Positions 23,635 through 38,421 of a stretch of 43,620 nucleotides of DNA are shown piece by piece. This stretch comes from an uncultured Dongia sp. (lineage in GTDB: Bacteria > Pseudomonadota > Alphaproteobacteria > Dongiales > Dongiaceae), in assembly GCF_936916975.1 (NCBI RefSeq), contig NZ_CAKZGO010000026.1, positions 1 through 43,620 on the forward strand, read 5' to 3'. Below the pieces are notes generated by a model. The model worked only from the letters and a program-made list of their open reading frames with translations. It searched no databases and was not told where the DNA came from. Positions within the stretch are counted from its first letter, which is position 1, and the number at the start of each line of letters is the position of its first letter. The position numbers were made by a program, and so were the translations under genes.

Positions 23635-23679
23635 GGGCGATGTTCTCTCAAACTACAAAATTGCGAGCTACCACCTTCC

Positions 23680-23774
23680 CGTCATCCCCGGGCCCACCCT
23701 TGAATCAAGAGGGCCTCGGGGATTCACTATGGCAGTTGAAGGCGTGGATGCCCGGGTCAAGCCCGGGCATGACG
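23680..23774. repeat. REP/BIME-like double hairpin between binding-protein and livH genes
   Basis: A 95-base element is bounded by CGTCAT (23680-23685) and ATGACG (23769-23774). The left hairpin pairs TCCCCGGGCCC (23685-23695) with the GGGCCTCGGGGA arm (23711-23722). The right hairpin is a 9-bp stem ATGCCCGGG/CCCGGGCAT (23748-23770) with loop TCAAG. The right half resembles a palindromic repeat that is scattered widely in alphaproteobacterial genomes. Placement between a binding-protein gene and its permease genes resembles REP elements that stabilise upstream mRNA and cut downstream expression. Confidence 0.75.
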
Positions 23775-23793
23775 ATAAATGAAGAATCCGAAA

Positions 23794-25098
23794 CTACAGC
23801 GGCTGCTTGGTGTAGTCGGTGTCGTTTTCATAGAGCCCGTCTTCGATCGAGGTCTTGTGGACGACATTGAGCTTGGCGCCCTCGACCTTGGAGATGAACT
23901 GGTGGCCGTAGCATTGATGGCGCTTGCCATCGAAGGTCTTGTTGCCTTGGGGGTGCTCGTTGCCCTCGGCAAAGGATGTTATGGCTTCGACCGCCTCGAT
24001 GAGCGCGCCCTTGTCGGCAGCGGATTTATAGCCGCTGGCCTCGACCGCCTGCTTGATGGTGTAGAGCGTTTCCCAGCAACCGAACATATGCGAATAGGTG
24101 GCGATATCCTTGGGATCGCCGGTGCTGGCGCCATTCGCGTCGACGCCGACCTTCTCGCGATAGAACTTGTCGTAAGGGCTCTGCTCGGCGCCGGCATAGC
24201 GCGGGAAGGCTTCCCAGAAATAGGTGCCGTCCAGGAACTCGAGGCCGGGGCTGGCGAGATCGACCGCTTCCAACGAGTCGATAAAGCCGAAGATCTGCGG
24301 CCGCTTGGAGCCGAAATGCTCGCCCATCTCCTTGACGAAGGTGAGCACGCCGGGGCCGACCATGACGTGATAGATCACCTCGGTGTCGGCGGGAATCTGC
24401 GCGAAATACTTGGTATAGGAGGTTTCCGTGGGCGGGATTGCGAGCAGGGCCGCGATGCTGCCGCCCTGCTTCTCGATCGCCGCGGTGAAGAAGTCGCGAT
24501 GGTCATGGCCGAAGGCGTAATCCGGGAAGATCATGGTGACCTTCTTGCCGAGATTGCCGGCGATCCACGGCGCCATCGAGCTCACTTGGGAGCGAACATC
24601 GGTGATGCCGGGCTGGAAGACGTAGCGGTTGAGCGCGCCTGAGGCGACGTGATAGCCCTCGCTCACCACGAAATACGGCATCTTGAGTTCGCCCGCGCGC
24701 GGCGCGGAGCCGATCACGACATGGGAGAACAGGGTGCCGAAGACGAAGTCGACCTTGTGCTGGCTGGCAAATTTCTCGACCACCTCGGCACCACGCTTGG
24801 GATCCGTGCCGTCATCCTCGGTGATGATCTCGACCTGGCGACCGGCGATACCGCCGGCGTCGTTGATCAGCTTCACCGCGGCGTGGGTGGTGCGGTCGTA
24901 CCAACGGCCATAGCCGGCGCCGATGCCGGTGCTGTGCAGCTGGAAGCCGAGTTTCAGGGGCTCGGCGGTCTGCGCCTGGGCGTAGCGGACATAGCCGGGC
25001 GAAAGGGCGAGCGCGCTGGCGGCGCCGAGTGTTTTTAGTGCGGAACGCCTTGTGATCAGGCTCTTTTTTCCGCCGATGAGGGGCGTCTTCGGATTCAT
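23794..25098 (-). CDS. LIV-type ABC transporter substrate-binding protein
   Basis: This 434-residue periplasmic binding protein of the LivK/AmiC class is the first gene of the transporter operon. The N-terminus has a twin-arginine-like signal (ITRRSALK, Arg17-Arg18) with a hydrophobic core and AQAQ cleavage region near residue 44. The mature domain opens PLKLGFQLHSTG and has the family DDGTDPKRGAEVVEKF. The ATG at 25098 follows AGGGAG. Upstream lies a promoter with the same palindrome that controls the ring-degradation operon (25164-25177), which suggests the ligand is that pathway's substrate and not leucine. No ligand can be assigned from sequence alone. Confidence 0.92.
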   Translation of the reverse strand: MNPKTPLIGGKKSLITRRSALKTLGAASALALSPGYVRYAQAQTAEPLKLGFQLHSTGIGAGYGRWYDRTTHAAVKLINDAGGIAGRQVEIITEDDGTDPKRGAEVVEKFASQHKVDFVFGTLFSHVVIGSAPRAGELKMPYFVVSEGYHVASGALNRYVFQPGITDVRSQVSSMAPWIAGNLGKKVTMIFPDYAFGHDHRDFFTAAIEKQGGSIAALLAIPPTETSYTKYFAQIPADTEVIYHVMVGPGVLTFVKEMGEHFGSKRPQIFGFIDSLEAVDLASPGLEFLDGTYFWEAFPRYAGAEQSPYDKFYREKVGVDANGASTGDPKDIATYSHMFGCWETLYTIKQAVEASGYKSAADKGALIEAVEAITSFAEGNEHPQGNKTFDGKRHQCYGHQFISKVEGAKLNVVHKTSIEDGLYENDTDYTKQPL

Positions 25099-25163
25099 GG
25101 CACAACTCCCTGTCGTGAGTGGATCGCAGAATCAATTTGCCTCAGCCCGGCCTTATGACGACC

Positions 25164-25205
25164 GTTTGCATACAAATAATAAACACGAGCGTCCGCAAAA
25201 CTCAA
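25164..25205 (-). promoter_or_regulatory. promoter and palindromic operator of the LIV-type transporter operon
   Basis: On the minus strand TTGAGT (25205-25200) and TATTAT (25181-25176) form a promoter with an 18-base spacer. The palindrome GTTTG-CATA-CAAAT (plus strand 25164-25177) overlaps the last two bases of the -10 element and lies 66 bases before the binding-protein start. Thirteen of its 14 bases equal the palindrome at 26762-26775. The geometry suits a repressor. Confidence 0.65.
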
Positions 25206-25207
25206 CA

Positions 25208-26665
25208 TCAGCCCGCATTGGGGGCGGCAAGCAGCCAGAGACCGAACAAAGTGTAGAGCACCATGAGGGCCGCCAGCGGCATCTGCGCAAAGGGTGCGCG
25301 CCAGCCATCGCCCCCAAGGCGCGCGCTCAGCACATGGGCGACAGCGACCGCCAGGATATGGCCAAGCACGATGGCACCCGCCTGCAGATTCCAGATCATC
25401 ACCACTGAGTGATAATTGTTGAGGAAGGACATCGTCACGTTGCGGGAATCCAGCCCAAACAGATTCCAGCCGCGCCCGAAGGGATCGGAGAGTGCCAGTG
25501 CTGCATATTGCAAATCGACCAGCAGCACGGTCAGGTAATGCGCAAAGTGATAGGCAAGCGAGATGGGAATGATGCTCACCACGAGAATACCGGCTGCGCG
25601 TGCCGCCGGCATCGCCGGATTGATCCAGCGGCCGAGGGCGATGGCGATAAGATAGGTGGCCGCCAGCGCCAGCCATAGGCCGAGCAGGCCGGCAGTGTTG
25701 AGGCTGCTCACGGCGCTGCGGCCGGGGAATTCCAGCGGGTTGATGCCGCCCTTAGCCAACCACCAGAACGTCCGGCACAGGCCATCGAAGGAAACGGCAC
25801 TCAGGGTCAGCAGAACGAAGAGCACACCGCTGATCGGCAAGGGCTGCAGGCTGAACAACCGCGTACCGGGTAGGACGAGAGAGAGGCGGCATCTGTTCGG
25901 TGCGATCGGCTCCGCATCGATCGGCGAGAGATGGGCGATGAGGCGCAGGAACACGCTGAACGGGTCGGCACGATGCAGCCAGGCCTCGCCGCCGAACAGC
26001 AGCATGCCGGTCAGGGTGATCGCAGCATAGACGAGGATGGCGACAGCCAGCCGCGTGGGATCGTTGGGGGCGAGGTCGACCAGTTCGAACCAGGCGAAAC
26101 CGAGGAAGCCGAGGATCGCCGGCCAGTAGCCGAGCCAGTCGGGGTAGCTTCGCCAAGGTTGATGTCGCCCCATCACGCGCATGAGCAAACGATAGGGTGC
26201 CATCCAGGGGTTGAGGCGGTGCCAGAGATCACCGCAGACAGCCTGGAGGAAGGTGAAGCCCACCCACCAGAGCGACCAGATCGCCACCGGCAGCGGATTG
26301 ATGCGGGGGTCTGCGCTGCCGCAGAAGCCGGCGATGAGAAGGCCGAGCAAAATCACGGCACTCAGCGTGCTGGTGAGCATGACCGGGGGCAGCGGGATTT
26401 CGCCCAGCGGCAACCTGGCGCCGCCCCAGCGAGCGACGGTCACGGCTGGAATCAGAAAGACCAGAAGAAACGAGACCAGGACCGCGAGCGTGCCACCGGC
26501 GAGATAGTAGCCGGTCGGCAGCAGCAGGACGAAACCGCCCTCGCCGCTATGGGCCGCGGCCGGGACGAAAGACGTCAGCCACCAGAGCAGGGCCGGCAGC
26601 GGCAGGCGGAAAATGGCGGATCGCGGCCGAAATTTGTTCATGAACCTGTCCAGGATGCCGGCCAT
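25208..26665 (-). CDS. polytopic membrane protein of unknown function
   Basis: This is a roughly 485-residue integral membrane protein with about ten hydrophobic spans after a signal-like first helix ending SFVPAAAHSGEGG. Recognisable features are GDLWHRLNPW, an intramembrane WSLWWVGF segment, AYHFAHYL (two histidines in a predicted helix) and a late NYHSVV. The overall pattern reminds me of membrane proteins annotated as fenitrothion-hydrolase-like in actinobacteria, but I hold this only weakly. The start is uncertain: ATG 26665 or 26641, since the frame is open to 26773. The gene diverges from the molybdenum hydroxylase operon across a shared operator and precedes the transporter operon, so it probably belongs to the same regulon. 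A redox or electron-transfer role, or a transport role, is speculation. Confidence 0.6.
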   Translation of the reverse strand: MAGILDRFMNKFRPRSAIFRLPLPALLWWLTSFVPAAAHSGEGGFVLLLPTGYYLAGGTLAVLVSFLLVFLIPAVTVARWGGARLPLGEIPLPPVMLTSTLSAVILLGLLIAGFCGSADPRINPLPVAIWSLWWVGFTFLQAVCGDLWHRLNPWMAPYRLLMRVMGRHQPWRSYPDWLGYWPAILGFLGFAWFELVDLAPNDPTRLAVAILVYAAITLTGMLLFGGEAWLHRADPFSVFLRLIAHLSPIDAEPIAPNRCRLSLVLPGTRLFSLQPLPISGVLFVLLTLSAVSFDGLCRTFWWLAKGGINPLEFPGRSAVSSLNTAGLLGLWLALAATYLIAIALGRWINPAMPAARAAGILVVSIIPISLAYHFAHYLTVLLVDLQYAALALSDPFGRGWNLFGLDSRNVTMSFLNNYHSVVMIWNLQAGAIVLGHILAVAVAHVLSARLGGDGWRAPFAQMPLAALMVLYTLFGLWLLAAPNAG

Positions 26666-26687
26666 TCTTCTGAGATTCGGTCGATTT

Positions 26688-26711
26688 CCGCAATCATCCC
26701 CGCAATCATCC
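26688..26711. repeat. tandem 12-bp repeat in membrane-protein leader
   Basis: CCGCAATCATCC is repeated twice exactly, with no gap, 23 to 46 bases upstream of the preferred start of the membrane-protein gene. It may be part of its leader or a binding site, and no function can be assigned. Confidence 0.5.
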
Positions 26712-26731
26712 TCTGTGGGCAACTTAGCCAC

Positions 26732-26775
26732 TTGACGCCTCGGCCGGTCGGCGGGACAATTATTTGCATACAAAT
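26732..26775 (+). promoter_or_regulatory. promoter and palindromic operator of the N-heterocycle operon
   Basis: TTGACG (26732-26737), a 17-base spacer and GACAAT (26755-26760) make a plausible promoter reading toward the FAD-subunit gene. One base after the -10 lies the perfect inverted repeat ATTTG-CATA-CAAAT (26762-26775), 67 bases before that gene. The same site also stands upstream of the divergent membrane-protein gene. Operator placement over the transcription start suits repression, plausibly by the operon's own MarR protein. Confidence 0.65.
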
Positions 26776-26842: not shown

Positions 26843-27697
26843 ATGTTTCTGCAGCCGGCCACGTTGAACGCAGCCATTGATCTCCTCGCCCAGCATGGCG
26901 GCAAATTGCTCGCCGGCGGGACCGATATCTTCCCGGCCCTGGGCCAGACGGCGCTCGCCAGCCCGATGATCGACATTTCCCGGCTGCCGGAATTGTGCGC
27001 CATTACGACCGGCGCCGACACGATCCGGCTCGGCGCCGGCGCTACCTGGAGCGAGATCGTGGCAGCCCCCCTGCCCGCCGGCTTCGACGCGCTGAAGGCG
27101 GCGGCGCGGGAGATCGGCTCGATCCAGATCCAGAATCGCGGCACCATCGGCGGCAACCTGTGCAACGCCTCCCCCGCCGCCGACAGCGTGCCGCCCTTGC
27201 TGACACTGGATGCGCGGGTCGAGCTCGTATCGCCGCGCGGCATGCGCGAGATGCCGCTCTCCGCCTTCATTCGCGGCAACCGGCAGACGGCTTTGGCCGC
27301 CGACGAGATCGTGACGGCCGTGCTGGTGCCGCGCGAGAACGGCGATTTCATCAGTCATTTTTCCAAGCTTGGCGCTCGGCGCTACCTCGTGATCTCGATC
27401 GCGATGATCGCGGTCGCGCTGAAACGCGCCGCGGACGGGGCGATTGCGCAGGCACGCATCGCCATCGGGTCCTGCTCGGCGGTGGCCCTGCGCCTGCCGG
27501 AACTGGAAGCTGCATTAGTCGGTTGTCGCTCCGTCACCGATATCGCAACGCGCGTGACGATTGCTCGCCTCGGCGGGCTGTCGCCGATCGATGATGTCCG
27601 CGCGAGTGCCGGCTATCGGCGCGACGCGGCACTCATCCTCGTCCGCCGTGCGGTGCAGGATTGTTTTGAGAAGCGCACGGCGACGGTGGGGCGCTGA
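26843..27697 (+). CDS. molybdenum hydroxylase FAD-binding subunit (CoxM/XdhB-like)
   Basis: This 284-residue FAD subunit belongs to the xanthine dehydrogenase/CO dehydrogenase family. It carries electrons from the FeS clusters to an acceptor. FAD motifs are LLAGGTDIFP (residues 22-31) and TIGGNLCNASPAAD (101-114), and the C-terminal CO-dehydrogenase-flavoprotein-like domain follows. The ATG at 26843 gives the family opening. GAGAGG stands about 12 bases upstream. A start 10 codons earlier is possible. It is the first gene of the seven-gene operon, 2 bases before the FeS-Mo subunit. The 4Fe-4S insertion loop seen in 4-hydroxybenzoyl-CoA reductase is absent as far as I can see. Confidence 0.92.
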   Translation: MFLQPATLNAAIDLLAQHGGKLLAGGTDIFPALGQTALASPMIDISRLPELCAITTGADTIRLGAGATWSEIVAAPLPAGFDALKAAAREIGSIQIQNRGTIGGNLCNASPAADSVPPLLTLDARVELVSPRGMREMPLSAFIRGNRQTALAADEIVTAVLVPRENGDFISHFSKLGARRYLVISIAMIAVALKRAADGAIAQARIAIGSCSAVALRLPELEAALVGCRSVTDIATRVTIARLGGLSPIDDVRASAGYRRDAALILVRRAVQDCFEKRTATVGR

Positions 27698-27699
27698 TC

Positions 27700-30462
27700 A
27701 TGTTCGACACGCAGGCCGCCACTCCCTTCACTCTCAATGGCCACCCGGTCGAGGTCGCGGCACCCGCGGAATGGCGCCTCAGCCGCGTGCTGCGCGATGA
27801 ATTGGGTCTTGCTGGCACCAAGGTAGGCTGCGACGCCGGCGATTGCGGCGCCTGCACGGTGCTGGTGGATGGTGAGACGGCCTGCGCCTGCCTGATGGCG
27901 CTGGGCCAGGTTGCCGGGCGCGCGGTCACGACGATCGAAGGGCTGCCGGCGGCATCGCCCATCACGCGCGATTTGCAGCAGAGCTTCCTGCGCCATGGCG
28001 CGGCGCAGTGCGGGATCTGCACGCCGGGTATGCTGGTGGCGGCAACGGCTCTGCTCGGGCGCAATGCGTCGCCGAGCGAAGAGGCCGTACAGGATGCCCT
28101 GGGCGGTGTGCTATGCCGCTGCACCGGCTATCGCAAGATCATCGCAGCGGTGATGGATGTCGGCAGTCCGGTTGCGGCGGTGGCGCGGCCATTGGCAGGC
28201 AAAGCGGTGGGTGCGCGCATCGACCGGCTGGACGGCCAGCGCAAGGTCGACGGCACCGATGTCTTCGGCGCTGATTCGCATCCCCATGATGCGCTGTTGC
28301 TGCGCGCGATCCGCACGCCGTTCCATCACGGGCGGTTCAAGCTGGGCGATCTCAAGGCCTATCTGCGCGACAATCCGGGCATCGTGCGGATCTTCACCGC
28401 CGCTGACGTGCCGGGGGAGAATTGTTTTGGCGTGATCGGTCCCTTTGCCGACCAGCCGGTCTTTGCCGTGGATGAGACGCGCTTTCGCGGCGAGGCGGTG
28501 GCCGCCGTGGTCGGCGAGGCCAAGGCGATCGAGGCGCTCGATCTCAAAAAATTCCCAGTGAGCTGGGAAGAACTGCCGGCGCACCTCACCCTCGGTGCGG
28601 CCTTGGCCGACAAGGCATCGCTGGTGCATGAGGCGCGCACGGACAATATCCTGGTGCGCGGCCGCGTGGTGCGGGGCGATATCGACGCGGCATTGGCGCA
28701 ATCCGATGCGGTGGTCGAGGGCGTTTTCGAGACCGGCTTTGTCGAGCATGCCTATATTGAACCCGAAGCCGGCATCGCGCACCGTGTGGGCGACCGGATG
28801 GAGGTTCAGGCCTGCACCCAGGCACCCTATATGGACCGCGATGACGTTGCGAAGATCCTGGGCATTCCCTTGGATGCTGTGCGGATCATCCCGACTGCGG
28901 TCGGCGGCGGATTCGGTTCCAAGCTCGATCTCTCCGTGCAGCCCTTCATCGCGGTCGCGGCCTGGCATCTCAAGCAGCCGGTGCGCATGGTCTATTCGCG
29001 CGCTGAGTCGATTTCGACCACGACCAAGCGCCATCCCGGCCGTATGCAAGTGCGGGTCGGCGCCACGAAAGACGGTCAGTTGACCGGCATGGATTTCAGC
29101 GGCGATTTCAATACCGGCGCCTATGCATCGTTTGGGCCGACGGTCGCGAACCGCGTGCCGGTCCACGCTTCCGGTCCCTATTTCATGCCGGCTTACCGCG
29201 CGCTGACGCGGGCGGTGCATACCCATGTCGTGCCGGCCGGCGCGTTCCGCGGGTTCGGCGTGCCGCAGGCCGGCATCGCGCAGGAACAGCTCTATGACAT
29301 GCTGGCCGAGAAGCTGGGCATCGACAAACTGCAGTTTAGGACTCAGAACGCGCTTCGTCCGGACCAGCCGACGGTGACCGGGCAGGTGCTGGGTGCCGGA
29401 ACCGGTATCCGTGCGTGCTTCGAAAGCCTCGAGCCGCATTGGCAGCGTGCACTGAAAGAGGCGGCTGCCGCGAATGCGCAAGCACCGGCGGACTCACCGC
29501 TGCGCCGCGGCGTCGGTATTGCCGGCATGTGGTATGGCTGCGGCAACACGTCATTGGCCAATCCGTCGACGATCCGATTGGGGTTGAAGGCCGATGGCCG
29601 TCTGGCACTTCACCAGGGGGCGGTCGATATCGGGCAAGGGTCCAACACCGTCATCACGCAGCTCTGCGCCGATGCCGTGGGCGCGCAGATCGACAGCATC
29701 GATCTCATCTCGGCCGATACTGATTTGACGCCCGATTGCGGCAAGACTTCCGCGTCGCGTCAGACCTTCATCACCGGCAAGGCCGCTCAACTGGCAGGCG
29801 AAGCGTTGCGACGGCAGATTCTGCGGCTTGCCAATGCCGGTGCCGATGCCGCCTTGAGTTTCCGACCAGGCAAGGTCGTCGTGCAGGATGGCGGCATCGC
29901 GCATCAGATTGAGCTTAGCTCCTTGCCCCGCGATGCGCGCGGCTATGTGCTGGCGGCGGAGGAGACCTTCGATGCGCCGACCACGTCGCTCGATGCCGAC
30001 GGTCAGGGCGCGCCTTACGCGGTCTATGGATTCGGCGCGCATATGGTGGAACTCACCGTCGATGTCGAATTGGGGCTGGTCAAGCTGCTGAAGATCACCG
30101 CCGCCCATGATGTCGGCCGCGCCGTCAATCCGACGCTCATTGAAGGGCAGATCGAGGGCGGCATCGCACAGGGTATCGGCCTCGCCTTGCTGGAGGAGTT
30201 TCATCCCGGCCGTGGCGAGAATCTGCACGATTATCTCATCCCTACGATCGGCGATGTGCCGGTGGTGGAATCGATCCTCATTGAGGACGCGTCGCCGGTG
30301 GGGCCGTTCGGCGCGAAGGGCATCGGCGAGCAGGCGCTCATTCCCACCGCACCAGCAATCCTCAATGCCATTGCACATGCGACCGGCGCGCGGCTGCACC
30401 GGATTCCAGCGACGCCGGACCGGATCCTGGCCGCCATCAAGGAGGCCGCCCATGAGGGATGA
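27700..30462 (+). CDS. molybdenum hydroxylase, fused [2Fe-2S] and molybdopterin subunit
   Basis: This 920-residue protein fuses the two remaining parts of a xanthine-dehydrogenase-family hydroxylase. Residues 1-160 hold both [2Fe-2S] sites: Cys44, Cys49, Cys52, Cys64, then Cys104, Cys107, Cys139, Cys141. Residues of about 175-920 are the molybdopterin domain with GGGFGSKLD, GAFRGFGVPQAG and the catalytic Glu877 in AKGIGEQAL. The enzyme would hydroxylate an electron-poor N-heterocycle next to nitrogen using water. Together with the FAD subunit it is complete. The next gene, a 6-hydroxynicotinate-reductase-like protein, makes nicotinate or a similar ring the leading substrate, but purines or other azaarenes remain possible. 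The reading frame is intact. Confidence 0.92.
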   Translation: MFDTQAATPFTLNGHPVEVAAPAEWRLSRVLRDELGLAGTKVGCDAGDCGACTVLVDGETACACLMALGQVAGRAVTTIEGLPAASPITRDLQQSFLRHGAAQCGICTPGMLVAATALLGRNASPSEEAVQDALGGVLCRCTGYRKIIAAVMDVGSPVAAVARPLAGKAVGARIDRLDGQRKVDGTDVFGADSHPHDALLLRAIRTPFHHGRFKLGDLKAYLRDNPGIVRIFTAADVPGENCFGVIGPFADQPVFAVDETRFRGEAVAAVVGEAKAIEALDLKKFPVSWEELPAHLTLGAALADKASLVHEARTDNILVRGRVVRGDIDAALAQSDAVVEGVFETGFVEHAYIEPEAGIAHRVGDRMEVQACTQAPYMDRDDVAKILGIPLDAVRIIPTAVGGGFGSKLDLSVQPFIAVAAWHLKQPVRMVYSRAESISTTTKRHPGRMQVRVGATKDGQLTGMDFSGDFNTGAYASFGPTVANRVPVHASGPYFMPAYRALTRAVHTHVVPAGAFRGFGVPQAGIAQEQLYDMLAEKLGIDKLQFRTQNALRPDQPTVTGQVLGAGTGIRACFESLEPHWQRALKEAAAANAQAPADSPLRRGVGIAGMWYGCGNTSLANPSTIRLGLKADGRLALHQGAVDIGQGSNTVITQLCADAVGAQIDSIDLISADTDLTPDCGKTSASRQTFITGKAAQLAGEALRRQILRLANAGADAALSFRPGKVVVQDGGIAHQIELSSLPRDARGYVLAAEETFDAPTTSLDADGQGAPYAVYGFGAHMVELTVDVELGLVKLLKITAAHDVGRAVNPTLIEGQIEGGIAQGIGLALLEEFHPGRGENLHDYLIPTIGDVPVVESILIEDASPVGPFGAKGIGEQALIPTAPAILNAIAHATGARLHRIPATPDRILAAIKEAAHEG

Positions 30463-31954
30463 CACGGTAACGGAGGCCTCCGCCGGCGATGTCGGTCCCA
30501 AGGTCGTCGATGGCAAGATCCGTTGCGACGCGTGTCCGGTGCTCTGCTACATCCGCGACGGCATGACTGGCGCCTGCGACCGCTACGCCAATCGCGGTGG
30601 CGAATTGATGCGGGTCGATCCGCATATCGTACTGGGTCAGGCCGTGGTGCCGTTCGGCCAAAGCGCCAAGGATTGGGATGGCGACATCCTCAATGGCGGC
30701 GGCACCTTCGTGACCGCGATCGGGGCCGGCACCACCTATCCCGATTACAAGCCGGCGCCGTTCATCGTCGCCTCGGAAGTGGACGGCGTCGATATGGTCA
30801 CCGTGGTGACAGAGGGCATATTCAGCTATTGCGGCGTCAAAATCAAAATCGACACCGACCGGTTCTTAGGCGCAGAGCAGGCCGTGGTGCGCGCGCAAGG
30901 TGAGGCGGTCGGCCATGTGACGACCGGCGAATACGGCTCGCAGATGCTCTCGCTGGGTGGCGTCCATCATCTGACCGGCGGCTCGAAGAAAGAGGGCCGC
31001 GTCACCTGCGATACTCTGCTGGCGCTTTGCAACAAGCAACCCGTCGAACTTGTGATTGACGGCGGATCGACCGTCATCGTCGAGGCAGGCAAGGCGCCGA
31101 TCGTCAATGGGGTGCCGGAAGAACGCATGCGCGTCGGCTGCGGCTCCGCCACCATCGGCATGTTCGCCAAGCAATGGCAGGGGAAGGTCGATGAGGTGGT
31201 GGTGGTCGACGACCACATCACCGGCGTTCTTTCCGAACATCAGGCCGGCAAGCTGCTGGGCATTCCCGATACTGGCATCAAGATGCGCGGGAGGCGATCG
31301 ACGCCCGGCCGCTATTTCCAGGTGGCCGAACCCGGGACGGGCTGGGGCGGCACCGATATCTCCGACCCGCTCGCCATCCTGCAGCCGTTCGACGGCAAAG
31401 TGGCGCGACCGGGCATGACCATGCTGATGGTCAGCACCACCGGCGAGCATGCGGCTTATTTTGAATTGGATGCCGAGTTGAAGCCGGTGGAGCGCGCGCT
31501 GCCGCAGCTGCTGCAGGAGTCGGTTGCGCGCATCCAGGAGAATTGCGAACCGGCCATGTGCACCGTTTTGTTCATGGGCGGGGCCGGCGGCTCCTTGCGT
31601 GCCGGCGTCACCGAAAATCCGGTGCGGCTCACGCAATCGGTGAAGCGCGCCCTCACTTATGTCAGCTGTGGCGGAGCACCCGCCTATATCTGGCCCGGTG
31701 GCGGAATCACCATCATGGTCGATGTGACCTTGCTGCCGCAGAACGCCTTCGGCTATGTGCCGACCCCGGCGCTGGTGGCGCCGATCGAGTTCACCCTGCG
31801 GCTTTCCGATTACGCAGCCTTGGGCGGACATATGGATTATGTGCAACGCTTGTCAACGTTCGCTACCGATGGGTCCAGGCGCCAGCGGGTGACGCGGCAT
31901 GAAGAAGCGCCCTGGCCCCTCACCTTCCACAACCGGTCGGAGCGCGTACTTTGA
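30452..31954 (+). CDS. 6-hydroxynicotinate-reductase-like iron-sulfur protein
   Basis: This 500-residue protein resembles proteins annotated as 6-hydroxynicotinate reductase (Hnr), which in Eubacterium barkeri reduces 6-hydroxynicotinate to 1,4,5,6-tetrahydro-6-oxonicotinate. The N-terminus has four cysteines (Cys25, Cys28, Cys32, Cys42 in CDACPVLC and GACDRY) suited to a [4Fe-4S] cluster. The rest has many conserved glycine-rich segments (GEYGSQMLSLGGVHHLTGG, GCGSATIGMF) that I cannot assign to a standard fold. Size matches Hnr at about 53 kDa. The start at 30452 follows AAGGAGG and overlaps the hydroxylase gene by 11 bases. In an aerobic-type alphaproteobacterium this implies a reductive ring-dearomatising route. 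The reaction is inferred from family resemblance. Confidence 0.8.
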   Translation: MRDDTVTEASAGDVGPKVVDGKIRCDACPVLCYIRDGMTGACDRYANRGGELMRVDPHIVLGQAVVPFGQSAKDWDGDILNGGGTFVTAIGAGTTYPDYKPAPFIVASEVDGVDMVTVVTEGIFSYCGVKIKIDTDRFLGAEQAVVRAQGEAVGHVTTGEYGSQMLSLGGVHHLTGGSKKEGRVTCDTLLALCNKQPVELVIDGGSTVIVEAGKAPIVNGVPEERMRVGCGSATIGMFAKQWQGKVDEVVVVDDHITGVLSEHQAGKLLGIPDTGIKMRGRRSTPGRYFQVAEPGTGWGGTDISDPLAILQPFDGKVARPGMTMLMVSTTGEHAAYFELDAELKPVERALPQLLQESVARIQENCEPAMCTVLFMGGAGGSLRAGVTENPVRLTQSVKRALTYVSCGGAPAYIWPGGGITIMVDVTLLPQNAFGYVPTPALVAPIEFTLRLSDYAALGGHMDYVQRLSTFATDGSRRQRVTRHEEAPWPLTFHNRSERVL

Positions 31955-32853
31955 GCGCGCGGCAGCAAGTGAGGCTGCTGCCCGATGGGCGCCGCCTGCA
32001 TCTGCACGATGGGCCGATCGACCTCATCATTTGCGCTGACGGCGACGCGCAGAATGTGGCGCGCGCCTATGATGCCGCGGCGACACGCTTTGCAACCTTG
32101 CTCGATGAATTGTGCGCGGAACTTTCTTTGCTTCGCCAGGCTGTGACGCAGGACAGCCAGCGACCGCAAGGCACTGTGGCAGCGCGCATGTTCGGGGCCG
32201 CCCAGCCTTATGCCAGCCGGCATTTCGTGACGCCCATGGTGGCCGTGGCCGGTGCCGGCGCTGAGGCAATCCTGGTGGCGATGACAACTGCCGCGCCCCT
32301 CAGCCGTGCCTATGTCAACAATGGCGGTGACATCGCGCTGCATCTGGCCGATGGCGCCAGTTTCGAGATCGGCATGGTGGACCGACCCGACAAGGCGCAG
32401 CTGTTCGGCAAACTCACCATCACGAGCCGTGATCCGATCCGCGGCATTGCCACCAGCGGCCGGCATGGCCGCAGCTTTTCGCTCGGCATCGCCGATGCAG
32501 TGACGGTGCTGGCCGAGGACGCGCCAACTGCCGATGCCGCCGCCACAATGATTGCCAACGCCATCGACCTGCCGGGGCATCCAGCCATCCTGCGCGTGCC
32601 CGCCAATGAGCTGCAGCCGGACAGCGACCTTGGATCGCTGCTGGTCACACGGTCGGTCGGTCGCCTGTCGGATGTCGAGATCACGCGCGCCTTGGCCCGC
32701 GGCGCCGATTATGCCGAAAGCTTGCTGGAGAATGGGCGCATACAGGCCGCCGCTCTCCATCTTGCCGGCCAGACCAGACTCGTTCACGCATCACCCGGTT
32801 TGATGATGCCGATCCATCGCCAGAAGGAAGCCCAGATCCATGCCGCAAGTTGA
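31951..32853 (+). CDS. UPF0280 family protein (ApbE-like fold)
   Basis: This 300-residue UPF0280 member is related to the ApbE flavin transferase superfamily. The ApbE-like features YVNNGGDIALHL (Asn123-Asp127 core) and GIADAVTVLAEDAPTADAAAT (residues 179-199) are present. There is no signal peptide, so it acts in the cytoplasm, unlike periplasmic ApbE. The start is TTG at 31951, overlapping the previous stop as TTGA, with GGAG 8 bases upstream. No ATG is suitably placed. Its tight coupling to the Hnr-like gene suggests it matures or assists that protein, for instance by flavin attachment. That is inference, as the biochemical function of UPF0280 is not known to me. Confidence 0.85.
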   Translation: MSARQQVRLLPDGRRLHLHDGPIDLIICADGDAQNVARAYDAAATRFATLLDELCAELSLLRQAVTQDSQRPQGTVAARMFGAAQPYASRHFVTPMVAVAGAGAEAILVAMTTAAPLSRAYVNNGGDIALHLADGASFEIGMVDRPDKAQLFGKLTITSRDPIRGIATSGRHGRSFSLGIADAVTVLAEDAPTADAAATMIANAIDLPGHPAILRVPANELQPDSDLGSLLVTRSVGRLSDVEITRALARGADYAESLLENGRIQAAALHLAGQTRLVHASPGLMMPIHRQKEAQIHAAS

Positions 32854-33424
32854 GATTCGCAAACGCCTGATCTCGGTCGAGGAGATCTTTCACGAAGGTG
32901 GCCCGCGCGCCGAGACACCGCTGCGCCGCGTCTCCGCCGTCGTCGTGATCCGCAATCCCTTCGCCGGCCGCTATGTCGAAGATATCGCCGGCTTCATGGA
33001 TGATCTGACGCCGCTGGGCCTCGCCATGGCGAGGGACATGGTGGCCGCCCTGGGCGGCGATCCGAAGATCGTACAAGGTTATGGCAAGGGTGCTATCGCC
33101 GGGTCCGCCGGCGAGGCGGAGCATGCAGCACTCTGGCATGTGCCCGGCGGCTATGCCATGCGCGAGGTGCTGGGCGATACCAAAGCCATCGTCGCCTCAA
33201 CCAAAAAGGTGGGCGGTCCGGGCACGCGGCTCGATGTGCCGGTGACGCATATCAACGCATCTTATGTCCGCAGCCATTTCGATGCGATGGAAGTGGGCCT
33301 CACCGACGCCCCGCGGGCAGATGAATTGCTGTTGGCCCTGGTCATGACGACGGGATCGCGCATCCATGCGCGCGTCGGTGGCCTCAAGGCCGGCGAGATC
33401 AAGGGAGAGGATGGATTGCGATGA
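32840..33424 (+). CDS. DUF1185 (amino acid synthesis family) protein, copy 1
   Basis: This 194-residue member of PF06684 belongs to a family with a chorismate-mutase-like fold in solved structures and no settled reaction. Conserved family segments are RNPFAGRYVED, GYGKGAI, KKVGGPGTRLDVP and SYVRSHFDAMEV. The ATG at 32840 has AAGGAAG upstream and overlaps the UPF0280 gene by 14 bases. The next gene is a clear paralogue of the same length, so the two probably form a heteromer or act on successive ring intermediates. The family name amino acid synthesis is not informative here. Confidence 0.88.
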   Translation: MPQVEIRKRLISVEEIFHEGGPRAETPLRRVSAVVVIRNPFAGRYVEDIAGFMDDLTPLGLAMARDMVAALGGDPKIVQGYGKGAIAGSAGEAEHAALWHVPGGYAMREVLGDTKAIVASTKKVGGPGTRLDVPVTHINASYVRSHFDAMEVGLTDAPRADELLLALVMTTGSRIHARVGGLKAGEIKGEDGLR

Positions 33425-34005
33425 AAGCCGAGATCAGGAAAATTGTCACCTTTGTCGAAGAAACGCATCGCGAGATGGATCGCGGCATCACTCCGCCGAC
33501 CCGGCGCGCGGCGGCGGTTGCGATCATCACCAATCCCTTTGCCGGAAAATATGTCGAGGATTTGACGCCGCTCATGGATATCGGCGTGGAGCTTGGTGCC
33601 TTGCTGGCCGCGAAAGCGGTGGCAGCCCTCGGCATCGATGGTGGCAAGGCCGAGAGCTACGGCAAGGCTGCGGCGGTGGGCGAGAATGGCGAGCTGGAAC
33701 ATGCCGCCGCCATCCTGCATCCGAAGCTTGGCACACCGGTGCGCAAGGTGTTGGAAAAGGGCGCTGCCCTCATCCCTTCCTCCAAGAAGCGGGGCGGGCC
33801 AGGTGTGGCGCTCGACATTCCCTTGGGCCACAAGGACGCCGCTTATGTGCGCAGCCATTTCGATGGCATGGAGGTGCGCGTCAACGATGCACCCCGGGCG
33901 AACGAGATCATGGTGGCCGTGGCCGTCACCGATAGTGGGCGACCGCTGCCACGTGTGGGTGGTCTCACCAAGGATCAGATCAAGGGCGAGGATGGATTGC
34001 GCTGA
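33421..34005 (+). CDS. DUF1185 (amino acid synthesis family) protein, copy 2
   Basis: This second 194-residue PF06684 protein shares with copy 1 TNPFAGKYVED, SYGKAAAV, KKRGGPGVALDIP, AYVRSHFDGMEV and the identical C-terminus IKGEDGLR. Overlap with copy 1 is ATGA and with marR TGATG, so the three are translationally coupled. The two copies differ most in residues 85-115, which could mark different ligands. Tandem pairs suggest an alpha/beta complex. The function is unknown beyond its presence in a ring-degradation operon. Confidence 0.88.
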   Translation: MKAEIRKIVTFVEETHREMDRGITPPTRRAAAVAIITNPFAGKYVEDLTPLMDIGVELGALLAAKAVAALGIDGGKAESYGKAAAVGENGELEHAAAILHPKLGTPVRKVLEKGAALIPSSKKRGGPGVALDIPLGHKDAAYVRSHFDGMEVRVNDAPRANEIMVAVAVTDSGRPLPRVGGLTKDQIKGEDGLR

Positions 34006-34451
34006 TGGCAATTCAACCGCGCCAAAAGCCCGAGACTGTGTCGACGCAATATGCGCTGGATGACCAGATCGGATTCATCTTGCGCAAGGTCAGCCAGCGT
34101 CATACCGCGATTTTCGCCGCGGCCTTTCCGGATCTCACCGCCCCGCAATGGGCAACCTTGGCCAAGCTCTATGAAAGCGGCCCCACCTCGCAGAACCAGC
34201 TCGGCCGCCTGGTGGCGCTCGATGCCGCCACGATCAAAGGGGTGGTCGACAGGCTCGGTGCGCGCGGCCTCACCATGACAGCGCCGGACCCGGCCGATGC
34301 ACGGCGCGTCGTCGTGGCCCTGACCGAGGCCGGTCGCAAGGAAGCAGAACGCGGCTTCCCCGTCGCCGAAGCGGTGACAGTGGAGACGCTGGCGGCGCTG
34401 AGTGTCGAGGAACGCGCGCAGCTTGTGCAGTTGTTGAAGGCGCTGGAGTAG
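34005..34451 (+). CDS. MarR-family transcriptional regulator
   Basis: This 148-residue MarR regulator has a winged helix-turn-helix (about residues 45-110: LTAPQWATLAKL, TSQNQLGRLVALDAATIKGVVDRL and wing DPADARRVVVALTEAGR). It is the last gene of the catabolic operon, sharing one base with the preceding stop. MarR proteins NicR and BpsR control nicotinate catabolism in other bacteria and respond to 6-hydroxynicotinate, so a matching role here is plausible. The two 14-bp palindromes at 25164-25177 and 26762-26775 are its best candidate operators, which would make the operon autoregulated. Ligand and sites are inference. Confidence 0.92.
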   Translation: MAIQPRQKPETVSTQYALDDQIGFILRKVSQRHTAIFAAAFPDLTAPQWATLAKLYESGPTSQNQLGRLVALDAATIKGVVDRLGARGLTMTAPDPADARRVVVALTEAGRKEAERGFPVAEAVTVETLAALSVEERAQLVQLLKALE

Positions 34452-34461
34452 CAGCGCCCCT

Positions 34462-35670
34462 CTACCCCAGTTTCCCTTTCACGAGATCGGGTATCCGCGT
34501 TGCCGGCGGCGTGTTGCGGCTGCGTTGGATGCGCGGGACTCCGTCGATGACGACCATGCCGACGCCGGGCAGATCACCAAGCTGGACCGAATCCAGCAGA
34601 TCCTTGCCGGCGGAATGCTGTGCCTTATCGAGGAAGACGAAATCGGCAGACATGCCGGCCTGAATGAGGCCCGCATCAAGCTTACGCATGCGGGTGGTGT
34701 TGCCGGTGGCAAAGCAGAAGGCGATCTCCGCCGGGATGTCGCCCAAGGATGAGAGCATCGAGACCATGCGCAGGATACCGAGTGGCTGCACGCCGGAACC
34801 GGCAGGCGCATCGGTGCCGAGGATGACACGCTCCAACTGGCCGAGTTCCTTCGCCGTGCGTAGCGTATAGAGGGCGGCACGTTCATTGCCGTTGTGGACG
34901 ATTTCAAGCCCGCGCTTGCAGCCCTCGCAGATGCAGCGGATCTGGCTGTCCGGCAGCGCGGTGTGGCCGCCATTGATGTGCCCCACGACATCGGCATCCA
35001 CTTCCAGCACCACATCCTTGTCGATGAGGCCTGAGCCGGGGATCGACGGACCGCCGGTATGGATGGTGCTCTGGATGCCGTATTTCCGCGCCCACTCGAC
35101 CATCTTATGGCCGTTGACGCCGTCCTTCACGCCACCCAACCCGATCTCGCCCAGCAACTTGACACCGGCCTTTGCTAGGTCGGCGAAATCTTCCTCCACC
35201 ATCCCCTGTTCGATGATCGGCGCACCGCCATGGACTTTCACGCCACCGGGGCGGAAGGCCGCATACATCCGCTGATGAAAGATCGCCATGGCTTTCAGGC
35301 CGACGATGTCCTTGGGGCGGCCGGGCATATGCACTTCGCCGGCCGAGATCATCGTGGTGACGCCGCCATGGAGTGAACTGTCGATCCAACCGATCTGGTT
35401 CTGACGCGGCGTCCAGTCGCCGGCCACCGGATGCACATGGCTGTCAATGAGGCCCGGCGCCAGCGCCGTCCCCTGAGCGTCGATGACGGTATCGGCACCC
35501 TCAAGATCGAGATCCTTGGCCTTGCCGACAGCAATGATCCTGCCGTTTTCGACCAGCACGGAATCGCCCGCCAGGATCGGGTTCTGCATATCGCCGCTGA
35601 GGATCAGGCCGATATTGCGGATCGCCAGCTTCGTTGCGCCGCCGGCTGCGGCGGGTGCGTCATGGGCCAT
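34462..35670 (-). CDS. amidohydrolase, enamidase-like
   Basis: This 402-residue metal-dependent amidohydrolase carries the HxH motif (His78, His80 in LIDSHVHP), a possible carboxylated Lys or Glu ligand around Lys171-Glu175, His204 (IHTGG), His231 and Asp287 (LGTDAPAG). Enamidase of Eubacterium barkeri, of this superfamily, opens the ring of tetrahydro-6-oxonicotinate to 2-formylglutarate and ammonia, the step after Hnr. Position next to the Hnr-like operon makes this the best reading. Imidazolonepropionase or another cyclic amidase are alternatives. It converges with marR (10 bases apart) and has its own promoter region with AGAGGG before the ATG. I see no copy of the shared palindrome in front of it. 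Confidence 0.85.
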   Translation of the reverse strand: MAHDAPAAAGGATKLAIRNIGLILSGDMQNPILAGDSVLVENGRIIAVGKAKDLDLEGADTVIDAQGTALAPGLIDSHVHPVAGDWTPRQNQIGWIDSSLHGGVTTMISAGEVHMPGRPKDIVGLKAMAIFHQRMYAAFRPGGVKVHGGAPIIEQGMVEEDFADLAKAGVKLLGEIGLGGVKDGVNGHKMVEWARKYGIQSTIHTGGPSIPGSGLIDKDVVLEVDADVVGHINGGHTALPDSQIRCICEGCKRGLEIVHNGNERAALYTLRTAKELGQLERVILGTDAPAGSGVQPLGILRMVSMLSSLGDIPAEIAFCFATGNTTRMRKLDAGLIQAGMSADFVFLDKAQHSAGKDLLDSVQLGDLPGVGMVVIDGVPRIQRSRNTPPATRIPDLVKGKLG

Positions 35671-35831: not shown

Positions 35832-36608
35832 ATGACGACTTTCTTCACCCGCCGCGCCTTGCTCATCGCCTTTGTCGCCCTCGCCACATTTGCCGCCAAC
35901 TCAACGGCGAGGGCCGAGGGCGTGCTGGTTGCGGTCGCTGCGAATTTTGCTGACGCGGCTCAGGATCTGGCGGCGCTTTATGAAAAATCTTCCGGCATCC
36001 AGGTTGCCGTCACCACGGGGTCGACTGGCAAGCTCTATGCCCAGATCAAGGAGGGCGCACCCTTCCAGATCCTGCTGTCGGCCGATGCCAAAACGCCGGC
36101 CAAACTTGAGGATGAACAAGCCGCCGTTAAAGGTTCGCGCTTTACCTACGCGATCGGCAAGCTGGCCCTGTGGAGCGCCGATGCGAAACGTGTGGGCGCC
36201 GATGGCCGCACCGCGCTCCAGGCCGACGACTTCCAGCATCTTGCCATCGCCAATCCGGGCCTTGCCCCCTACGGCGTCGCGGCACGCGAGACCTTGCAGA
36301 GTCTGAAGCTCTGGGACAAGCTGTCGCCCAAGATCGTCATGGGCGAGAATATCGGACAGGCGCATAGCATGGTTGCGACCGGCAATGCCGAGCTGGGCTT
36401 CGTCGCTCTTTCCGCCGTTCTCAACCCAAAGAAGCCGTCGGAGGGGTCGCATTGGGTCGTGCCGCAGGACATGTTCAAGCCGATCCGCCAGGACGCGATC
36501 CTGCTCAATGCCGGCAGCGGCAATGCGGCTGCGACAGCTTTCCTCGATTTCCTGAAATCTCCGGAGGCACATGCCGTCATCGAGACCTATGGCTACGGGG
36601 TGGAGTAA
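35832..36608 (+). CDS. modA: molybdate ABC transporter substrate-binding protein ModA
   Basis: This 258-residue periplasmic molybdate-binding protein has a signal peptide ending near Ala28 (ANSTARA). The mature protein opens with the ModA pattern VAVAANFADAAQDLAALYEK, followed by TTGSTGKLYAQIKEGAPFQILLSAD, containing the serines and backbone that bind the oxyanion. GGAG stands 7 bases before the ATG. It is the first gene of modABC, under a ModE-like site. Molybdate is needed for the neighbouring hydroxylase. Confidence 0.96.
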   Translation: MTTFFTRRALLIAFVALATFAANSTARAEGVLVAVAANFADAAQDLAALYEKSSGIQVAVTTGSTGKLYAQIKEGAPFQILLSADAKTPAKLEDEQAAVKGSRFTYAIGKLALWSADAKRVGADGRTALQADDFQHLAIANPGLAPYGVAARETLQSLKLWDKLSPKIVMGENIGQAHSMVATGNAELGFVALSAVLNPKKPSEGSHWVVPQDMFKPIRQDAILLNAGSGNAAATAFLDFLKSPEAHAVIETYGYGVE

Positions 36609-36635
36609 GAAAGATCATGGCGGATCCCGATTGAG

Positions 36636-37313
36636 ATGACGCTGCCCGATCTTGATCCGCTTTGGCTTACCCTGCGCCTTGCCGGGCTGGTGACGCTCAT
36701 CCTGCTGATCGTCGGCACGCCGCTGGCATGGTGGCTGGCGACGACAAGGTGGCGGATCAAATCCGTCGCGGAAGCCATCACCGCCTTGCCGCTGGTCCTG
36801 CCACCGACCGTGCTCGGTTTCTATTTCCTGGTGTTCCTCAGCCCGAATTCGACCCTGGGCGGCCTATGGTTCAGCGCCACCGGTACGACGCTCACCTTCT
36901 CGTTCGTCGGACTGGTGTTCTGCTCGGTGATATACTCCCTACCCTTCACCGTGCAGCCGCTGCAGGCGACCTTCGAGACTCTCGGCCGCGGCTTCTGGGA
37001 GACGGCAGCAACGCTCCGCGCCAGTCCGCTGGACGCGTTCCTCACCGTCATCTCTCCCCTGGCCGCGCGCGGCTATCTCACGGCGATCGTGCTGACCTTC
37101 GCCCATACGATCGGCGAATTCGGCGTCGTGCTGATGGTCGGCGGCAACATCCCGGGGCAGACCAAGGTCATCTCGATCGCCATCTACGAGCATGTCGAAA
37201 CGATCCGCTATGCCGAAGCGCATCTGCTTTCGGCGGGACTCCTTGCCTTCTCCTTCCTGGTCCTGCTGTTCGTCTATGTCATGAACCGGCGTTTCCCAAT
37301 CCATGTCGGTTGA
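36636..37313 (+). CDS. modB: molybdate ABC transporter permease ModB
   Basis: This 225-residue inner-membrane permease has about five to six spans, with the ModB motifs ALPLVLPPTVLGFYFL and FAHTIGEFGVVLMVGGNIPGQTK. It starts 27 bases after modA and overlaps modC by 11 bases. The stretch between modA and modB has no apparent terminator. Confidence 0.95.
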   Translation: MTLPDLDPLWLTLRLAGLVTLILLIVGTPLAWWLATTRWRIKSVAEAITALPLVLPPTVLGFYFLVFLSPNSTLGGLWFSATGTTLTFSFVGLVFCSVIYSLPFTVQPLQATFETLGRGFWETAATLRASPLDAFLTVISPLAARGYLTAIVLTFAHTIGEFGVVLMVGGNIPGQTKVISIAIYEHVETIRYAEAHLLSAGLLAFSFLVLLFVYVMNRRFPIHVG

Positions 37314-38421
37314 CGGCATGAGCGAGCTCTCCTTCGACCTCAGCATCGCATTCGGCGATTTCTCGCTGGCGGTCGCCGAGCGTCTGCCGCTGCAGGGGAT
37401 CACCGCGCTGTTCGGGCCCAGCGGTTGCGGCAAGAGCACCCTGCTGCGTATCCTCGCCGGTCTGGAGCGTCGGGCTGTGGGTCACATCATGCTCGCCGGC
37501 GAAACCTGGCAAGACGGTGAGATTTCAATACCGACCTATCGGCGCGGAATCGGCTACGTGTTCCAGGATGCGCGCCTGTTTCCGCATCTCGATGTCGCCA
37601 GCAATCTCCGCTATGCCGAGAAGCGGTCGCAGGGCATGAGCAGTGCCATCCATTTCGACCAGGTGGTGGTGGCGCTTGACCTCGGCGATCTTCTGCGGCG
37701 CAGCGCACCGTCATTGTCGGGCGGCGAGCGGCAGCGTGTCGCCATCGGCCGGACGCTGCTGACGCGACCACGCCTGCTGTTGATGGACGAGCCATTGGCC
37801 TCGCTCGATTTCAAGCGCAAGGGCGAGATCCTGCCCTATATCGAACGCCTGCCGGATGCCTTTGGCGTGCCGATCATCTATGTCACCCACGATATCGAGG
37901 AAGTGGCGCGGCTCGCCGATCGCATGATCGTGCTGCAGAACGGACGTGTCGTCGTGACGGGCGATGTCGAGAGCGTGCTGGCGCGCCTCGACCTGCCTGG
38001 CGGCAACGAGCAATTCGAAGCGGGGGCGGCCCTCACCGCCCATGTTCTGAGGCATGATCCACATTACCGGCTGAGTCAGCTCGACCTTCACGGCCAGACG
38101 ATCATGGTACCGCAGATCGATGCTGCCATCGGCAGCAGTCTGCGCCTGCGCATTCGTGCCCGCGACGTCGCCATCGCGACCGAACGACCGAGCGCCATCA
38201 GCGTGCGAAATATCCTTTCGGTCCACATCCTGGAGATCATGGCGACGCTGGATTCGCCCCATGCCGACATCCTGCTCGATATCGGCGGCTCGACCCTGCG
38301 AGCCCGCATCACCCGGCAATCGGTCGACGAGTTGCAGCTCGCCCCCGGCCACGCGGTCTTTGCCGTGGTGAAATCGGTGTCCTTCAACGCACCGGGATTC
38401 GGCGCGCGCCAATTGCCCTAG
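37303..38421 (+). CDS. modC: molybdate ABC transporter ATP-binding protein ModC
   Basis: This 372-residue ATPase has Walker A GPSGCGKST (residues 38-46), signature LSGGERQRVAIGRTLL and Walker B LLLMDEPLASLD. A C-terminal molybdate-sensing TOBE/Mop region (about residues 295-365) includes RARDVAIAT and RITRQSVDELQLAPGHAVFAVVKSV. The start may be ATG 37303 or 37318. Its stop overlaps the stop of the AhpD-like gene on the other strand by 4 bases. Confidence 0.95.
   Translation: MSVDGMSELSFDLSIAFGDFSLAVAERLPLQGITALFGPSGCGKSTLLRILAGLERRAVGHIMLAGETWQDGEISIPTYRRGIGYVFQDARLFPHLDVASNLRYAEKRSQGMSSAIHFDQVVVALDLGDLLRRSAPSLSGGERQRVAIGRTLLTRPRLLLMDEPLASLDFKRKGEILPYIERLPDAFGVPIIYVTHDIEEVARLADRMIVLQNGRVVVTGDVESVLARLDLPGGNEQFEAGAALTAHVLRHDPHYRLSQLDLHGQTIMVPQIDAAIGSSLRLRIRARDVAIATERPSAISVRNILSVHILEIMATLDSPHADILLDIGGSTLRARITRQSVDELQLAPGHAVFAVVKSVSFNAPGFGARQLP

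Follow-up and report, generated by a model that had tools for sequence, protein, structure and literature searches.

A candidate reductive nicotinate-utilisation island in an uncultured Dongia species, and the co-occurrence of UPF0280 with proteins of the 6-hydroxynicotinate reductase family

Introduction

Which compound is served by a compact gene island of an uncultured Dongia sp. (Alphaproteobacteria), and what do its uncharacterised members contribute? The island lies in a stretch of 43,620 nucleotides (nt; hereafter the window) on contig NZ_CAKZGO010000026.1 of assembly GCF_936916975.1 (5.48 Mb, 47 contigs) and encodes a molybdenum (Mo) hydroxylase, a protein of the 6-hydroxynicotinate reductase (Hnr) family, a UPF0280/COG2122 protein, two DUF1185 proteins, a MarR regulator and an enamidase. 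The fermentation of nicotinate by Eubacterium barkeri reportedly proceeds through Mo hydroxylase, Hnr and enamidase steps. A first-pass annotation, made from the letters of the sequence, had read the island as a reductive route of this type with UPF0280 and the DUF1185 pair as members. Considering the observed gene content, homology, co-occurrence, predicted fold of UPF0280 and a conserved palindrome, we estimate a probability of about 85% that the island is a utilisation unit for nicotinate or a closely related pyridine-carboxylate that follows a reductive route.

Clusters of this kind are already in print for Azorhizobium, Bradyrhizobium and relatives, since the same nicotinate cluster has been described in four Alphaproteobacteria, A. 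caulinodans, B. japonicum (blr3818-blr3830), R. palustris HaA2 and Bradyrhizobiaceae SG-6C (PMC3511419; papers are cited by PMC number). SG-6C degrades nicotinate with transient appearance of 6-hydroxynicotinate (PMC3511419).

Results

All eight open reading frames (ORFs) between 26843 and 35670 are open at their annotated coordinates. Seven form an operon on the plus strand (26843-34451) whose six consecutive junctions are a 2-nt gap followed by overlaps of 11, 4, 14, 4 and 1 nt, and the enamidase gene (34462-35670) faces the operon from the minus strand. With domains assigned by Pfam/NCBIfam, the operon and its opposing amidohydrolase are thus as first described. Its first two genes specify a hydroxylase with the flavin adenine dinucleotide (FAD), 2x[2Fe-2S] and MoCo domains of the xanthine dehydrogenase family: an FAD subunit (26843..27697, +; FAD_binding_5 and CO_deh_flav_C) and a fused 2x[2Fe-2S] and molybdopterin subunit (27700..30462, +; Fer2, Fer2_2 and MoCoBD), the proposed nicotinate 6-hydroxylase. 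The iron-sulfur (FeS) domains form one chain with the Mo subunit, so the enzyme consists of two polypeptides; in this respect it departs from the first-pass description.

The product of 34462-35670 (-) is by sequence an enamidase, which would open tetrahydro-6-oxonicotinate. It matches the E. barkeri enamidase structure 2VUN with E 1.3e-113 over residues 14-394 (48% identity), the next match in the Protein Data Bank (PDB) having E 8e-06, and the enamidase-like reading of the first-pass annotation is thereby strengthened. Glu175, which lies in the motif GE(V/I)GLG as in 2VUN, is retained in 67/67 Hnr-linked enamidases; the same position in 36 copies that are not Hnr-linked holds Glu in 29, Lys in 6 (a second subgroup) and Ile in 1.

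Homology suggests that the product of 30452..31954 (+), which is clustered with the Mo hydroxylase and the enamidase, belongs to the Hnr family. It shares 79% and 77% identity with two Bradyrhizobium Hnrs (L070, L075) and 44-47% with the Hnrs of loci L048-L055, and several of its nearest plasmid relatives carry the annotation "6-hydroxynicotinate reductase". General searches were uninformative: no family in Pfam/NCBIfam matched at E <= 0.001, a PDB search returned chance-level matches (E >= 0.5), a profile search of solved structures gave nothing convincing, and the AlphaFold model (mean predicted local distance difference test score, pLDDT, 80.9) found no Foldseek match at E <= 0.001. There is a weak hint of the C-terminal barrel of glycine-cleavage T-protein, as Pfam GCV_T_C is detected in 48/52 Hnr members at E <= 1 (best 0.0004; the window protein reaches 17 bits, under the cut-off of 25.9) and T-proteins appear at Foldseek ranks 13, 20 and 27 with probabilities of 0.2-0.25. 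At one locus, L038, the Hnr gene is interrupted and split over two frames in an otherwise normal-looking cluster.

We then compared the neighbourhoods of 79 Hnr loci, comprising 78 retrieved loci and the window; 49 of them were taken from a scan with enamidase, which skews the set towards enamidase, and L023 and L079 belong to one genome and are both counted. UPF0280 is present in 79/79 loci, in 75 of them on the same strand and at most 400 nt downstream of Hnr, which argues that the grouping is not due to chance. DUF1185 is found in 78/79 (the exception, L036, is a short contig), with at least two copies in 50. This upholds the earlier view of UPF0280 and DUF1185 as members of the unit. Enamidase, Hnr, UPF0280 and DUF1185 also occur together in each of L048-L055, which represent Desulfobacteraceae, Desulfovibrio, Bacillota, Clostridiales Family XIII, two Thermodesulfobacteriota, a deltaproteobacterium and an uncultured proteobacterium and are mostly anaerobic judging from record titles. 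Homologues of the window Mo subunit (~600 bits) adjoin Hnr and enamidase in L048 and L052-L055.

The distribution of Hnr coincides with that of UPF0280. In an evenly drawn sample of 337 alphaproteobacterial genomes Hnr occurs in 65 and UPF0280 in the same 65, the two lists being identical and covering 30 families; owing to the kinship among sampled genomes we attach no probability to this co-occurrence. Among 26 genomes with an enamidase-family gene and no Hnr in the retrieved stretch, 16 contain both a full Hnr at another site and UPF0280, and 10 contain neither, one 48-residue Hnr match (G070) having been discounted. Hnr and UPF0280 lie ~9 kb apart in G085 and on different contigs in G087 and G088, where both are present. 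UPF0280 without Hnr in the stretch was seen at L039, L098 and L113, and the genomes of L098 and L113 hold Hnr elsewhere. L039 is a Hydrogenophaga plasmid with UPF0280 in four places, at least one of them beside IS1071, and with Rieske oxygenase genes nearby; the plasmid record gave no Hnr match, and the host chromosome was not covered by the search. UPF0280, we infer, is an obligate accessory of Hnr.

What might this accessory do? The window protein (31951..32853, +; TTG start) scores 392 bits with NF003322 against a cut-off of 290 and has an ApbE-like predicted fold. With its model (pLDDT 95) Foldseek returns DVU1097 (2O34) at ranks 1-2 and exclusively ApbE/Ftp/FmnB chains at ranks 3-40, including 12 ApbE-family chains at E <= 0.001 (FmnB, E 5e-7). 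This is further supported by Pfam ApbE matches at E <= 1 in 28 of 45 UPF0280 members (best 1.2e-07), the window member not being among them, and by retention of GGD, TSG and AD..AT motifs, matched by eye, which we equate with ApbE Ser241 and Asp285. No Cys column reaches 30% conservation in 45 Hnr-linked UPF0280s, which makes a persulfide carrier less likely in this subfamily. Hnr of E. barkeri reportedly contains covalently bound flavin. Taken together, the fold and motifs, the lack of a conserved Cys and this covalent flavin make loading or covalent attachment of the Hnr flavin the most likely single role, which we propose for UPF0280.

The resemblance to ApbE is incomplete, and this counts against a flavin role. 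TM-scores of UPF0280 to ApbE chains are below 0.5, the segment with the catalytic His257 of ApbE is, on reading the sequence, replaced by a short GRS stretch, and the ApbE target motif DxxSGAT is found in 0/52 Hnrs. Two other flavin acceptors considered in Hnr were rejected, the motif LTGGSKKEG because it is absent from the Hnrs of L048-L055, and GCGSAT (residues 229-234) because residue 234 varies, being T in 39, A in 9, V in 2 and S in 2 of 52 Hnrs.

One alternative holds that UPF0280 does not handle flavin and instead delivers sulfur or Fe-S to Hnr, in the manner proposed for COG2122 and DUF39 in making homocysteine. In Desulfovibrio vulgaris homocysteine synthesis needs COG2122, with a NIL/ferredoxin protein as a further partner, and COG2122 is described as distantly ApbE-like with a homology that seems not to reach the flavin-binding region (PMC5764234). 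Sulfur trafficking is the function ascribed to the methanogen protein MA1715 (PMC12068725). In our data, 7/8 genomes behind L048-L055 contain a second, distant UPF0280, which adjoins DUF39 and NIL/ferredoxin genes in L128 and L131, consecutively in the order DUF39-NIL/ferredoxin-UPF0280 in the latter; such homocysteine-type copies score 85-102 bits, compared with 232-304 bits for Hnr-linked copies. The proposal that Hnr is itself a DUF39 homologue, suggested by eye, was rejected, hhalign giving Prob 0.1 (percent scale) and E 0.56. With no such relation detected, Cys columns all below the level given above and a predicted fold resembling flavin transferases, we regard sulfur delivery as unlikely, if well short of negligible. 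A literature search for the name 'UPF0280' found nothing, and the excerpts on COG2122 make no mention of nicotinate.

Enamidase is not the only candidate for ring opening near Hnr. A close enamidase (E < 1e-170, 68-100% identity, a cut-off chosen after a gap down to 1e-99 had been seen) is present in 29 of the 65 Hnr genomes and a close HyuA (E <= 1e-200) in the other 36, with no genome having both or neither; as scoring was limited to the top candidates of each genome (5 and 3), an extra copy of either could be missed. In the same sample G126 has a close enamidase without Hnr, nine HyuA genomes lack Hnr, and G147 and G301 carry a distant enamidase relative (40-42%) besides HyuA. A test with eight genomes agrees, giving HyuA relatives of at most 45% in five with enamidase and HyuA of 59-62% in three without. 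Among the 26 plasmid records that contain Hnr, 16 have an enamidase as well (at least 68% identity), and homologues of HyuA and HyuB lie in the retrieved stretch of the other 10. The surroundings of three of the 16 were examined (L015, L018, L046), and L018 has HyuA/HyuB too, so the alternation is not absolute. Hnr clusters without enamidase and with oxoprolinase-like HyuA/HyuB are L013, L014, L016, L017, L037, L038, L044, L045 and L163-L166, with only HyuA recognised in L038. The alternation points to another means of opening the reduced ring in 36/65 of the sampled Hnr genomes. Among the literature matches listed, no link of HyuAB to nicotinate was evident in titles or the beginnings of abstracts; the ATP-dependent caprolactamase CapAB is a family member able to open lactams with ATP (PMC8453981).

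DUF1185 proteins a (32840..33424, +) and b (33421..34005, +) match PF06684 with E 6e-70 and 2e-73, respectively, and protein a also matches the PDB entries 3BYQ and 2QTP. Solved members have a chorismate-mutase-like fold (PMC2954203), and the attempts reported for a DUF1185 protein of a coumarin pathway showed no effect (PMC7913881). Where an enamidase locus has no Hnr in the stretch (36 loci), DUF1185 is present in 12 and lacking in 24. For three of the 12 (L098, L113, L058) Hnr lies elsewhere in the genome, in six (L057, L059, L061, L064, L074, L084) it was not found in the genome, and L040-L042 are plasmids with host chromosomes outside the search. An exclusive tie of DUF1185 to Hnr was therefore rejected, as DUF1185 occurs in enamidase loci without Hnr and is also common away from all of these genes (388 plasmid records). 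A role as decarboxylase of the aerobic glutarate route only is weakened because DUF1185 is present in the fermentation-type cluster L051 (see discussion). DUF1185 might act on the enamine/enol product, a suggestion that we consider possible and rather doubtful.

Two further arrangements were noted at these loci. In L040, L041 and L042 DUF1185 adjoins an enamidase-like gene of the Lys subgroup with no Hnr in the stretch; in L040 it is next to a flavin monooxygenase with a semialdehyde dehydrogenase gene near, and L041 also has a semialdehyde dehydrogenase. L058, L061 and L074 combine MarR, enamidase and a DUF1185 pair with no Hnr in the stretch; a search for Hnr and UPF0280 gave neither in the L061 and L074 genomes and located both elsewhere in that of L058.

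The substrate may be approached through the regulator (34005..34451, +; Pfam MarR), which is BpsR-like. A PDB search ranks 6PCP/6PCO second and third (E 8e-25), and we take these as BpsR because their residues 15, 23, 26 and 32 fit the contacts described for BpsR, whose ligand is 6-hydroxynicotinate (PMC6837509). Three of the four contacts are kept, Tyr15, Arg26 and His32 corresponding to Tyr16, Arg27 and His33 of the window protein. In 39/79 Hnr loci, including the window, a MarR protein scores 90 bits or more, and in the 38 readable rows Tyr and Arg are each conserved in 38/38 and the His32 equivalent in 33/38, the His23 equivalent being mostly Phe or Tyr. The window protein is thus a probable sensor of 6-hydroxynicotinate, as judged from these residues.

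A motif scan found two palindromes in the window, GTTTGCATACAAAT at 25164..25177, a candidate operator before the binding-protein gene, and ATTTGCATACAAAT at 26762..26775 in the divergent promoter, a candidate MarR operator. The palindrome ATTTGYATRCAAAT (<= 1 mismatch) has 24 copies in 16/79 Hnr loci, each near the start of a searched cluster gene (-60 to +350 nt), and at this stringency no copies in three mononucleotide shuffles. Together with the BpsR-like regulator it offers a cheap transcription test of the substrate.

Several observations weigh against nicotinate utilisation or against single parts of it. The assignment to the Hnr family is transitive, resting on the Bradyrhizobium Hnrs and on the 42% identity of SG-6C Hnr to E. 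barkeri Hnr (PMC3511419). Furthermore, the window Hnr lacks an N-terminal 2x[4Fe-4S] ferredoxin domain (0 motifs), which is present in 8/8 Hnrs of L048-L055 with two or three CxxCxxCxxxC motifs each. The solved structures nearest in sequence to the Mo enzyme are aldehyde oxidoreductases, not nicotinate dehydrogenase. The best PDB match of the regulator, 2NNN, is another MarR protein of unnamed function with Tyr in place of His32, and the BpsR contact His23 is Phe24 in the window. Finally, 63/79 Hnr loci have no ATTTGYATRCAAAT copy at 1 mismatch, and with 3 mismatches the four matches in the window (two sites, both strands) are reached by 6/100 dinucleotide shuffles.

The short form of Hnr is not peculiar to the window. 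The ferredoxin domain was found in none of the 71 Hnrs outside L048-L055, of which a few are truncated where the retrieved stretch ends, and many of these 71 loci have a homologue of ferredoxin-NADP reductase close to Hnr; the genome of the window holds such a homologue elsewhere, on contig 21 (49% identity). The short form may therefore, as read from sequence, receive its ferredoxin externally.

Some of these points fit a second alternative, in which the same reductive logic serves another N-heterocycle (pyridine carboxylate, pyridone or pyrimidine-like ring) and 6-hydroxynicotinate is no intermediate. The relation to aldehyde oxidoreductases and the Phe at the His23 position are in line with it, as is the type of hydroxylase, which differs among Hnr clusters and in the window is unlike both NicAB and the split anaerobe enzyme. 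Against it, Hnr and enamidase closely resemble their counterparts in published nicotinate clusters or in relatives of these, the regulator keeps three contacts to 6-hydroxynicotinate, and a nicotinamidase-like homologue is found in 10/79 Hnr loci, including the window. The window copy is an isochorismatase-family hydrolase, by reading a probable nicotinamidase (19092..19727, +; PF00857 E 7e-30), loosely linked to the island; nicotinamidase feeds nicotinate. We consider another substrate improbable. The reductive route of the first-pass annotation thus gains support from the enamidase match, the presence of the expected Hnr partners in other phyla, the MarR contacts and the nicotinamidase-like homologues. 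That Hnr, UPF0280 and enamidase form a mere side branch, with nicotinate degraded oxidatively via 2,5-dihydroxypyridine, is very improbable: NicAB-type hydroxylases do lie near Hnr in L013, L014 and L015, but no NicC-type flavin monooxygenase was recognised by eye among the window ORFs (a genome-wide search was not made), and in 65/65 genomes Hnr occurs with either a close enamidase or a close HyuA.

The island extends further to the left than the 26843-35670 of the first-pass annotation, which stands for that part and missed a Liv-type ATP-binding cassette (ABC) transporter and a membrane protein (20350-26773). The transporter (20350..23634, -) comprises ATPases (20350-21066, 21066-21800) and permeases (21797-22756, 22753-23634), the permeases being named by reading and from annotated homologues. 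The adjacent periplasmic binding protein (23794..25098, -; Peripla_BP_6, PF13458) would probably serve uptake of nicotinate or hydroxynicotinate; homologues of at least 360 bits occur in 13/79 Hnr loci (window included, one genome twice). An orphan membrane protein with ~9 hydrophobic segments (25208..26773, -) has no match in a Pfam search and has homologues in 12/79 Hnr loci (window included, one genome twice), together with the transporter in relatives. Its listed TTG start is doubtful because it falls inside the palindrome at 26762..26775, which overlaps this probably wrong start; translation probably begins at 26665 or 26641. To the right, genes for a molybdate transporter, ModA, ModB and ModC (35832..38421, +), are named by reading, with ModA/ModB homologues above 340 bits in three further Hnr loci (two genomes). 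Further on, a long ORF (41401-43590) reads by eye as an ABC sugar permease fused to a gluconolactonase/strictosidine-synthase-like domain.

Discussion

In the route that we propose, for which activities, order of steps, ligand and the helper roles of UPF0280 and DUF1185 are all predicted, the substrate would be taken up by the Liv-type transporter and hydroxylated at C6 by the two-polypeptide Mo enzyme. Hnr would carry out a four-electron reduction of 6-hydroxynicotinate to 1,4,5,6-tetrahydro-6-oxonicotinate (THON), and enamidase would hydrolyse the enamide to 2-formylglutarate and ammonia. Glutarate would follow as in Azorhizobium, by enzymes encoded outside the window. The MarR protein may repress the genes until 6-hydroxynicotinate appears, UPF0280 may load or covalently attach the Hnr flavin, and the DUF1185 pair may act when the ring opens or later, possibly by hydrolysis or tautomerisation of the enamine/enol product.

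UPF0280/COG2122, an uncharacterised family of bacteria and archaea, thus gains a partner with an identical presence pattern across 337 genomes, and its fold predicts a chemistry that can be tested. Tentatively, and at somewhat less than even chances, we suggest that UPF0280/COG2122 here represents a second, cytosolic class of flavin transferase (ApbE scaffold, no ApbE His, non-canonical acceptor) dedicated to Hnr maturation, and that enamidase and HyuAB are unrelated ring-opening modules in near-strict alternation. If UPF0280 does load flavin onto Hnr, the sulfur-carrier view of COG2122 needs re-examination.

How does the island compare with known systems? The published alphaproteobacterial clusters agree with it in encoding enzymes of the first three steps, an ABC transporter and conserved proteins without assigned function, and in a reductive route through THON (PMC3511419). 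The Bradyrhizobium loci L077, L081, L082 and L092 have a NicAB-type hydroxylase and a ferredoxin-NADP reductase near Hnr and a single DUF1185 beside it, whereas in the window the hydroxylase is of the fused FeS-Mo type and there are two DUF1185 genes. E. barkeri fermentation shares the Mo hydroxylase, Hnr and enamidase steps, and the related L051, from a metagenome-assembled genome of Clostridiales Family XIII, also has UPF0280 and DUF1185. L051 contains ena-hnr-UPF0280, DUF1185 and mutase-, isomerase-, lyase- and dehydratase-like genes, named by reading, and is apparently a complete E. barkeri-type nicotinate fermentation cluster. In contrast to L051, the window Hnr is without the ferredoxin domain, and no methyleneglutarate branch was seen among the window ORFs.

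The regulator resembles BpsR of Bordetella in family and in three of four 6-hydroxynicotinate contacts, but has Phe for His23, and BpsR represses genes of the oxidative nic pathway (PMC6837509). CapAB provides a precedent for lactam opening by HyuAB-like enzymes that is relevant to Hnr clusters without enamidase, while the window has no such system (PMC8453981). In the DUF39-NIL/ferredoxin-COG2122 homocysteine system a UPF0280/COG2122 member is likewise needed together with a metabolic enzyme (PMC5764234), but Hnr has no detectable relation to DUF39 and the UPF0280 copies of that system are distant. With ApbE, Ftp and FmnB (PMC12052999), UPF0280 shares the predicted fold and the GGD, TSG and AD..AT motifs; it differs from them in lacking the His257 segment, and its partner Hnr in lacking DxxSGAT.

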